From an uncultured Oscillibacter sp. (GTDB lineage: Bacteria; Bacillota; Clostridia; Oscillospirales; Oscillospiraceae): a stretch of 64,000 nucleotides of DNA. Positions within the stretch are counted from its first letter, which is position 1. Every line of letters begins with the position of its first letter. The notes under the pieces are model-generated. The model had not been told where the DNA came from. It saw nothing but the letters and a program-made list of their open reading frames with translations, and made no database searches. The stretch is from contig CATNDJ010000003.1 of assembly GCA_950097265.1 (NCBI GenBank), positions 55,821 through 119,820 of the forward strand. Reading direction: 5' to 3'. Shown piece after piece: positions 2,619 through 30,405 of the stretch. A program made the position numbers and the translations under genes.

Positions 2619-2896
2619 GTCTGGGTTCCTCCTAATTCGTACGGTTTTTTGTTCGCGTCGATTCCGTACGGCGAGAGAAATTTTTCTGTCCGCGCTGCCG
2701 TGCGTATCATTCCGGCTCATGAAAAAATCCGGCGCAAAGCAGGCCGGTTCCGTCATGGCGCGGCGATCTACGCGCGCGTACAGACCTTTCTCAGCCGCCC
2801 GATTATCGGACATACTCCCCAGAAGTTACCTCTTTCGAGCAATCTCCCGGTTCATCGCGGTCACAGGGCGCAGAGGATGTCCTCTCCGCCGCATGC
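2619..2896 (-). promoter_or_regulatory. Long structured leader of the S10 operon
   Basis: About 277 nt separate the predicted transcription start (about 2896) from rpsJ. Read on the minus strand it holds a short GC hairpin (CCGGC ... GCCGG) followed by ATTTTTT, ending near 2724, which resembles an intrinsic terminator. Further downstream is a 7-bp stem with arms 2664-2670 and 2638-2644 (CGTACGG/CCGTACG), ending 11 nt before the AGGAGG of rpsJ. This suggests attenuation or translational feedback. The regulator is not identifiable from sequence. Confidence 0.5.
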
Positions 2897-28546: not shown

Positions 28547-28813
28547 ATGGAACCTGTCTGCAATGAGTGCGCCCAGGAGCGCCTGGAACCCGTCACCATG
28601 AACGCCCGGGTACTGCGGGTGAACTGCTGCGACCTGCTGGTCTGCGACCTGTGCGGCTGTCAGGAAGTCCTGGTCCATACCAACGACGCCTGCTGCTTCC
28701 GCCCGGGCGAGTGCGTCTGCATCGAGTACGACGGCGCGATGACCATGAGCATCCCGCCCCAGATCAGCGCGGGCTGCGTGAAGCGCGTCCCCTGCGGAGG
28801 GTGCTGCTGCTGA
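28547..28813 (+). CDS. Cysteine-rich small protein (16 Cys in 88 residues)
   Basis: The 88-residue product starts MEPVCNECAQERLEP, has a VNCCDLLVCDLCGCQE core and ends VPCGGCCC. Cysteines come in pairs and CxxC units, suggesting metal or cluster binding. The segment VLVHTNDACCFRPGE and the motif MTMSIPPQISAG resemble a small conserved clostridial protein whose function I cannot name. It is 52 nt downstream of the ModE-like gene with a strong AAGGAGG site, and a short inverted repeat TACAT-ctt-ATGTA lies between. A terminator follows directly. Confidence 0.7.
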   Translation: MEPVCNECAQERLEPVTMNARVLRVNCCDLLVCDLCGCQEVLVHTNDACCFRPGECVCIEYDGAMTMSIPPQISAGCVKRVPCGGCCC

Positions 28814-28819
28814 GAAACC

Positions 28820-28855
28820 CCCGGCCCTTCCTCAAGGAGGGCCGGGCCCTTTTTC
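28820..28855 (+). terminator. Terminator after the Cys-rich gene
   Basis: CCCGGCCCT / AGGGCCGGG with a 9-nt loop, followed by CCCTTTTT. Confidence 0.8.
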
Positions 28856-28858
28856 CCC

Positions 28859-28887
28859 TTGACAGGCCGCCCCGGACGGCCTATAAT
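28859..28887 (+). promoter_or_regulatory. Perfect consensus promoter of the deaminase gene
   Basis: TTGACA (28859-28864), 17-bp spacer, TATAAT (28882-28887). Confidence 0.88.
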
Positions 28888-28902
28888 CATACTCACATAC
28901 CG

Positions 28903-28965
28903 GCTTGTATAAGCTCATGATTGGATGGGCGTCTCTACCAACTGCCGCAACAGTTGACTACAAGC
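28903..28965 (+). promoter_or_regulatory. Purine riboswitch aptamer (guanine type, C74)
   Basis: Three-way junction. P1 is GCTTGTA/TACAAGC (28903-28909, 28959-28965), P2 GCTCAT/ATGGGC with loop GATTGG, P3 CAACTG/CAGTTG with loop CCGCAA. J2/3 reads GTCTCTAC where the xpt reference has GTTTCTAC, so only position 48 differs. J3/1 is AC before the P1 strand, giving C at the ligand-reading position 74, hence guanine-like specificity. U22, U47 and U51 equivalents are kept. P2 and P3 are each shorter than usual. Confidence 0.85.
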
Positions 28966-28998
28966 TTTGGGGCCCGCCCCAAAGCCTGTGGTCTTTTT
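28958..28998 (+). terminator. Riboswitch terminator sharing the P1 3' strand
   Basis: The hairpin 5' arm spans 28958-28972 and includes the whole P1 3' strand. The 3' arm is 28977-28991, with one A/C mismatch, and a TCTTTTTCT run follows. Because ligand-bound P1 and the full terminator are mutually exclusive, purine binding should promote read-through (ON switch). Confidence 0.7.
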
Positions 28999-29049
28999 CT
29001 TTGCCGGTATTCATTCCGCGGGACTTCCGCGCACTTGGGAGGATGCCAC

Positions 29050-30405
29050 ATGCGCAGTCTTTTGATCAAAAACGCCTCCGCCGCCGTCACCTGCGACAGC
29101 CGGGACACGGTGCTGGAAAACGCCAATCTCCTGATTCAGGACGGCGTCATCGCCTACATAGGGCCCGAGCCCCGGGAAGCGGAGGAAACCCTGGACGCCT
29201 CGGGCTGCATCGCCTACCCCGGCCTCGTCAACACCCACCACCACCTTTACCAGACCTTCAGCCGGAACCTGCCCCAGGTGCAGAATCTGGAGCTCTTCGA
29301 CTGGCTGACCGCCCTTTACGAGATCTGGAAGAACCTGGACGGCGAGGCCGTCTATTACAGCTCCCTCGTGGGCATGGGGGAACTGCTGAAGACCGGATGC
29401 ACCACCGTCTTTGACCACCACTACGTCTTCCCCGGCGGGGCCTCCCTGGCATTGCTGGACGCCCAATTCGCCGCGGCGGAGGCCCTGGGCGCGCGCATGT
29501 ACGCCTCCCGGGGAAGCATGGACTTAAGCCGGAAGGACGGCGGACTGCCTCCGGACAGCGTGGTCCAGACGGTGGACGAAATTCTGGCGGACTGCCAAAG
29601 AGCGGTGGAGAAGTACCACGACCCCTCCTTTAACTCCATGCGCATGGTGGCCCTGGCCCCCTGTTCCCCCTTCAGCGTGTCGGCGGAGCTGCTGCGCCAG
29701 TCCGCCGTCCTGGCACGAAGCTTGGGCGTCCGGCTCCACACCCACCTGTGCGAGACCAAGGACGAGGAACGCTACGTCCTGGAGAAGCACGGCAAGCGTC
29801 CCCTGGCCTATATGGAGGACCTGGGCTGGGTGGGCCCGGACGTGTGGTACGCCCACGGCATCCACTTCAACGACGCAGAATTGAAGCTGCTGGCGGACAC
29901 GGGCACCGGCATCGCCCACTGCCCCATCTCCAACATGAAGCTCTCCTCCGGCGTGTGCCGCATTCCCGACATGCTGGCCCTGGGGGTCCCCGTGGGCCTG
30001 GCGGTGGACGGCAGCGCCAGCAACGACGGGTCCAATCTTCTGGAGGAACTTCGAGTGGCCTATCTGCTCCACCGCCTGTGCTCCAGTGAGAAAGCTCCCA
30101 GCGGCTACGACCTGCTGAAAATCGCCACCCGGGGCGGCGCCCGGGTCCTGGGCCGGGAGGATATCGGCTCCCTGGAGGCGGGCAAGGCCGGGGACCTGTT
30201 CCTGATCCGCCGGGACCGGCTGGAGCTGGTGGGAGCGGACCTGGACGTTTCCTCCCTGCTGGGCACGGTGGGCTTCAAGGGCCCCGTGGATTACACGGTG
30301 GTCAACGGCCGGATCGTCGTGCGGGAGGGCCGCCTTACCGGCGTGGACGAGGAAAAAGCGGTCCGGGAGGCCCGGGCCGCGGTGAGAAAATACCTGGAGC
30401 GCTGA
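29050..30405 (+). CDS. 8-oxoguanine deaminase (amidohydrolase)
   Basis: This enzyme family hydrolyses 8-oxoguanine to urate and ammonia, often with weaker activity on other purines. The 451-residue protein has an amidohydrolase barrel with NTHHHLYQTFSR (HxH metal site, residue about 60), HTHLCET, AHGIHFND and the diagnostic AVDGSASNDGSNLLEELR. The whole sequence reads as the 8-oxoguanine deaminase clade rather than chlorohydrolase or guanine deaminase, but a substrate test would be decisive. ATG 29050 follows GGGAGGATGCCAC. A guanine-type riboswitch controls it, and its stop abuts a repeat element. Confidence 0.88.
   Translation: MRSLLIKNASAAVTCDSRDTVLENANLLIQDGVIAYIGPEPREAEETLDASGCIAYPGLVNTHHHLYQTFSRNLPQVQNLELFDWLTALYEIWKNLDGEAVYYSSLVGMGELLKTGCTTVFDHHYVFPGGASLALLDAQFAAAEALGARMYASRGSMDLSRKDGGLPPDSVVQTVDEILADCQRAVEKYHDPSFNSMRMVALAPCSPFSVSAELLRQSAVLARSLGVRLHTHLCETKDEERYVLEKHGKRPLAYMEDLGWVGPDVWYAHGIHFNDAELKLLADTGTGIAHCPISNMKLSSGVCRIPDMLALGVPVGLAVDGSASNDGSNLLEELRVAYLLHRLCSSEKAPSGYDLLKIATRGGARVLGREDIGSLEAGKAGDLFLIRRDRLELVGADLDVSSLLGTVGFKGPVDYTVVNGRIVVREGRLTGVDEEKAVREARAAVRKYLER

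Follow-up and report, generated by a model that had tools for sequence, protein, structure and literature searches.

The leader of a gene for an 8-oxoguanine deaminase (8-oxoGD) family protein in an uncultured Oscillibacter sp. raises a double question: which purine does its RNA recognise, and does binding turn the gene on or off? We analysed the whole stretch of 64,000 nucleotides in which this leader lies (hereafter the window; positions are those of the window, and features lie on its + strand unless stated otherwise), taken from a 139-contig assembly that is 91.5% complete. An initial annotation had proposed a guanine-type riboswitch at which purine activates the gene.

A guanine-type purine riboswitch and its gene

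At 28885-28980 (+) the window matches the purine riboswitch model RF00167, scoring 49.6 bits where the gathering score is 37 (E = 2.3e-5 when the entire window is searched against all of Rfam). This match, the fold and covariation define a three-way-junction aptamer at 28902-28966. P1 (28902-28909 with 28959-28966) leads through J1/2 UAA (28910-28912) into P2 (28913-28918/28925-28930, 6 bp) with its 6-nt loop L2, GAUUGG. J2/3, GUCUCUAC, follows at 28931-28938 (46-53 in xpt numbering, C48 being 28933 and U51 28936), then P3 (28939-28944/28951-28956, 6 bp), capped by the 6-nt L3, CCGCAA, which retains the CC that partners the GG of L2. In the alignment to RF00167, the end of P3 and J3/1 supply G72-A73-C74-U75 at 28956-28959. 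Folded in isolation, the aptamer adopts exactly P1/P2/P3 as its minimum-energy structure, and among 20 aligned aptamers both sides have changed in 16 of 19 pairs, covering all three helices. In that alignment 92.6% of cells are paired, a value that none of 500 shuffles reached.

The guanine-I pocket is complete. U22 (28910), U47 (28932), U51 (28936) and C74 (28958, by the RF00167 alignment the nucleotide that base pairs with the purine ligand) are all present, and J2/3, 8 nt from G46 to C53, has the length and contacts of guanine-I. Indeed, every contact position (J1/2 UAUAA, U47, U51, A73 at 28957 and C74) is as in guanine-I. The RF00167 score and C74 confirm that the leader RNA is a real purine riboswitch of the guanine type, as first proposed. 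The U48 to C difference that had been pointed out is likewise there, at 28933. The helices P2 and P3 had been described as short; P2, P3, L2 and L3 each fall one unit short of the Rfam RF00167 consensus, a slight reduction that leaves 6 bp and 6-nt loops.

The open reading frame downstream (29050-30405, 451 aa) is an 8-oxoGD family amidohydrolase, as the initial annotation had it: it scores 579.7 bits with NCBIfam NF006055 (8-oxoguanine deaminase; cut-off 532) and matches Pfam Amidohydro_1. A ribosome-binding region around GGGAGG (29034-29045) precedes the start codon at 29050. The best PDB relatives of the protein are 3hpa and 7ww2. Its residues Q68, E235, H269 and D320 are invariant in our alignment (A1) and correspond, by motifs matched by eye, to the catalytic Q74/E243/H275/D326 of poNdmH from the AtzB/8-oxoGD cluster (PMC13054789). 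Given that relatives in the 8-oxoGD cluster are weak on guanine and active on several analogues of it (PMC6186785, PMC13054789), the NF006055 name alone does not fix the substrate here. An N2,N2-dimethylguanine hydrolase was considered and rejected, the CQxxN residues of that enzyme being CSxxS here, as in 3hpa and 7ww2 (PMC13054789). The gene after the deaminase lies on the opposite strand, so that 29050-30405 is apparently monocistronic and the riboswitch apparently serves one gene. Directly upstream of the leader, at 28547-28813 (+), lies an 88-residue cysteine-rich open reading frame with a ribosome-binding site and its own terminator (28820-28846), without a match in Pfam or NCBIfam. The window also holds, at 2795-2863 (-), an S10-Clostridia ribosomal protein leader (RF03136) at 36.8 bits, barely over its cut-off of 35.1.

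Expression platform and predicted polarity

A sigma-70 type promoter (TTGACA, 17-nt spacer, TATAAT) at 28859-28887 agrees with the consensus at 12 of 12 positions, where 0.1 such matches would be expected, and the transcript should therefore start about 8 nt before P1. Past the aptamer, folding reveals an intrinsic terminator hairpin at 28956-28993 followed by UUUUU at 28994-28998; a simple pattern scan misses it, its stem being split by an A.C mismatch into segments of 7 bp and 9 bp below a CCCG loop. Compared with 200 shuffles, the hairpin (-26.8 kcal/mol) has a z of -6.6. Its lower stem, GACUACA/UGUGGUC, is built from G72, A73, C74, U75 and the beginning of the P1 3' strand, the remainder of which goes into the upper stem, and in the free fold J3/1 including C74 is paired within the terminator. 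The 5' arm, first placed at 28958-28972, in fact begins at 28956; it does take the entire P1 3' strand, as had been claimed, and J3/1 with C74 in addition. The folding agrees with the claim that P1 and the full terminator exclude each other. Since J3/1, C74 and the P1 3' strand are all used by the terminator, it cannot coexist with the aptamer, which predicts an ON switch. Scanning and folding revealed neither a second terminator between aptamer and start codon nor a separate antiterminator.

When P1 is forced to form, a short hairpin at 28966-28983 (+) is compatible with the aptamer. Its base lies 10 nt from the U-run, too far for intrinsic termination to be expected, and by analogy with pbuE (PMC10907184) it likely nucleates the full terminator. 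Folding the growing transcript step by step gives the aptamer as the lowest-energy structure at lengths ending at 28965-28985, and the terminator from 28989. For the whole leader, the full terminator state (-39.9 kcal/mol) lies 7.4 kcal/mol below the P1-forced state (-32.5 kcal/mol) without ligand, in energies that leave out the loop-loop contact, magnesium and ligand. Since this unliganded gap favours termination, only fast co-transcriptional binding would work.

We consider it probable that the leader is a transcriptional ON switch, induced by a guanine-class purine and acting by strand displacement. RNA polymerase would set out from the predicted start, about 8 nt ahead of P1, and P2, P3 and then P1 would fold behind it. 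While the aptamer is preferred, from about 28965 to 28985, a guanine-class purine could bind and pin C74, J3/1 and P1. The lower terminator stem would then be blocked, only the short hairpin would be left, and transcription would read through into the 8-oxoGD-family gene. Without ligand, the 3' segment 28977-28993 would invade and displace P1, completing the full hairpin against the U-run, and transcription would stop. In this reading, bound ligand would increase read-through, and the switch would presumably serve to induce purine breakdown at times of purine abundance.

The arrangement in relatives and other purine switches

We fetched the 80 nearest 8-oxoGD genes from GTDB release 220 and searched them with a covariance model (R1) built from 20 aptamers. 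This search for homologues ahead of the same gene, which the initial annotation had suggested, returned an aptamer directly upstream in 5 of the 80; the majority of the relatives are without the switch. A Brachyspira locus carries the aptamer as well. The five belong to an uncultured Oscillibacter MAG (L062, 86% protein identity), a MAG labelled Lachnospiraceae (L063, 78%), an Enterococcaceae MAG (L093), Agrilactobacillus yilanensis (L097) and an uncultured member of the Clostridia (L113). The polarity of L113 is ambiguous, with a 4-bp P1 and a weak overlap between P1 and terminator. The other four are predicted to be ON switches: their free folds place the P1 3' strand inside the terminator, with gaps of 9.3-21.5 kcal/mol. 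Their terminator sequences differ among themselves, and those of L063, L093 and L097 also take P3. Activation by purine, the polarity originally put forward, is thereby supported as a prediction by four relatives that reach it with other terminators. L062 carries a promoter at the same place (TTGACA-17-TATACT), and its upper stem differs from that of the window by a compensating U-A to C-G change (GCUUUGGGG to GCUUCGGGG, CCAAAGC to CCGAAGC). That L062 has the same arrangement argues against an assembly artefact.

In Brachyspira pilosicoli PC5538III-hc (L146, reverse strand, about 983-1079) the aptamer is followed by codons for MSSLFIKN and then by an insertion sequence. The rest of an 8-oxoGD gene lies on another contig (L064:1-620), after transposase sequence of the same kind. 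It appears that the insertion has divided the riboswitch-8-oxoGD cassette near the beginning of the coding region. The Brachyspira deaminase is 71% identical to that of the window, which suggests transfer between phyla. In a quick deaminase tree the window, L062 and L063 form a clade (support 98) that Brachyspira joins (89), and the presence of the aptamer takes 4 changes on this tree against 8.7 in shuffles. Of 151 genomes in the window's own family, 30 encode a homologue of the deaminase, and an aptamer lies within the fetched flanks only in the window's own genome. Among 300 sampled genomes from the phylum to which Agrilactobacillus belongs, no new example of the linkage turned up at the deaminase loci retrieved, about 16 weaker places being left out. 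All plasmid-borne relatives of the deaminase are below 60% identity.

The source genome has one other RF00167 match (G000:C13:58052-58149). The gene after it most resembles guanine deaminase (TIGR02967, 302 bits, short of the cut-off of 375), and here, too, the terminator has its start inside the P1 3' strand, overlapping it by only about 2 nt. Of the 30 nearest homologues of this guanine-deaminase-like gene in the window's family, 23 are preceded by an aptamer, and most of the associated terminators begin in or beside the P1 3' strand. ON-geometry purine switches thus look common before such genes in this family, a pattern absent from the initial annotation, and purine-induced deaminases look like a regulon of which the switch studied here is one member. 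Before the guanine-deaminase-like gene, position 73 is changed (L242-L271; the genome's own copy is the C13 match, L002). The 21 distinct aptamers linked to the guanine-deaminase-like gene have G at this position in 15, U in three, C in two and A in one; A is found in all seven of those linked to 8-oxoGD and in nearly all other tabulated aptamers. Judged by sequence, those with an altered position 73 may form an undescribed variant group. The Enterococcaceae MAG and the MAG labelled Lachnospiraceae each carry a further purine aptamer (L150 and L147), predicted to be ON, whose long terminator draws in both P3 and P1. The proteins that follow resemble purine permeases by eye, and that of L150 has no match in NCBIfam.

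Alternative readings and known purine riboswitches

Riboswitches for 8-oxoguanine, a class that does not appear in the initial annotation, were reportedly described in 2023 as ON switches before 8-oxoGD genes in Paenibacillaceae. When the family of genome G182, which we infer to be Paenibacillaceae, was searched with NF006055, 36 of 400 genomes had a deaminase above the cut-off, and 16 of the 32 genes fetched were preceded by an aptamer. All 16 have J2/3 GCUCUAC (7 nt, one shorter than guanine-I), a J3/1 with AACUA, and A in place of G72; the two that we checked (L190, L193) have ON geometry, with a terminator that takes J3/1 and the P1 3' strand. We take these 16 to be probable members of the published 8-oxoguanine class, which was announced in PMC9295807. 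The window's ON switch, too, might have 8-oxoguanine as its natural ligand, as an independently arisen sensor with a guanine-I-like pocket. The name of the gene in NCBIfam favours this reading, as does the fact that in another family the same gene has ON switches matching the announced 8-oxoguanine class. C48 also fits that class. Nonetheless, neither the window nor its 8-oxoGD-linked relatives share the GCUCUAC and A72 of the 16 class aptamers. Moreover, no position is common to the 8-oxoGD-linked aptamers yet missing from the ordinary guanine riboswitches of the family, and to our knowledge no guanine pocket senses 8-oxoguanine. The initial annotation had read U48C as a hint of altered ligand preference, which the counts do not bear out: C48 occurs in 16 of 41 tabulated purine riboswitches, including 10 of the 23 that precede other, unrelated genes, and the two aptamers most closely related to that of the window have U and G. 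Among the 8-oxoGD-linked aptamers, position 48 holds C in the window, G in L063 and U in all others. Ordinary guanine riboswitches of the window's family often carry C48, and we therefore rejected it as a specificity change. In the adenine riboswitch, U48 fills the ligand site only in an unliganded form and is displaced upon binding (PMC11477058). All 8-oxoGD-linked aptamers of the window's set keep guanine-I junctions. From these sequences, the window switch would most likely be triggered by guanine or by a closely related 6-oxopurine such as hypoxanthine or xanthine, and not by 8-oxoguanine, which we regard as an unlikely ligand.

The polarity could also be the reverse, a liganded aptamer letting the terminator form and shutting the gene off, as in xpt and yxjA (PMC9881172, PMC9756952); OFF-type terminators do precede other genes of the window's family. 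Given that the single leader terminator needs the P1 3' strand and C74, that no separate antiterminator was seen and that the aptamer-compatible hairpin ends 10 nt short of the U-run, we consider an OFF switch very improbable. Alternatively, the aptamer could be degenerate and the hairpin a constitutive attenuator, to which the shortening of P2, P3 and both kissing loops by one unit and the greater stability of the terminator state without ligand would be congenial. Yet the junction nucleotides are all intact, the GG/CC of the loops is kept, three helices covary across 20 aptamers, and L062, at 86% protein identity, retains the aptamer as well as the terminator, whose upper stem shows a compensating change; a non-functional aptamer is hardly credible.

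The 8-oxoGD gene appears to be under ON control by purine riboswitches with two kinds of pocket: a remodelled one in the inferred Paenibacillaceae and the ordinary guanine-I pocket in the window. The arrangement also suggests that a guanine-I aptamer need not mean repression. Depending on whether the damaged base or guanine itself is the effector, the gene would serve oxidative-damage clearance or general purine breakdown in gut anaerobes. There is some small chance that sensing of 8-oxoguanine, or of some other oxidised or alkylated guanine, evolved independently a second time here, with an apparently unmodified guanine-I pocket, and that riboswitch and gene travel as a single mobile cassette among gut Clostridia, Lactobacillales and Brachyspira. 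In the open-licence literature searched, no paper describes a guanine-I pocket with ON geometry before 8-oxoGD, which is weak evidence of novelty.

With the 8-oxoguanine class the window switch shares the gene, the ON geometry and a terminator using J3/1 and the P1 3' strand. Compared with the 16 collected aptamers, it differs in having GUCUCUAC (8 nt), U47 and G72 where they have GCUCUAC and A72, and J2/3 length and position 72 rule out membership. The pbuE riboswitch of B. subtilis is a purine (adenine) transcriptional ON switch whose terminator takes the P1 3' strand. An inner hairpin nucleates that terminator (PMC10907184), and the short hairpin in the window likely does the same. Unlike pbuE, which senses adenine through U74, the window has C at this position (28958). 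Guanine-II and xanthine-II riboswitches have the same scaffold, a predicted ON polarity and genes of purine salvage or breakdown (PMC9295807); they carry insertions in J2/3 and J3/1, and xanthine-II also U51G, whereas the window is without insertion and keeps U51. Finally, guanine-I, as in B. subtilis xpt-pbuX, resembles the window in its three-way junction, J1/2 UAUAA, J2/3 GUYUCUAC, J3/1 ACU with C74 and GG/CC loops. Among the well-studied guanine-I riboswitches, however, xpt and yxjA are OFF switches (PMC9881172, PMC9756952), in contrast to the window, where the P1 3' strand lies within the terminator and an ON switch is predicted.
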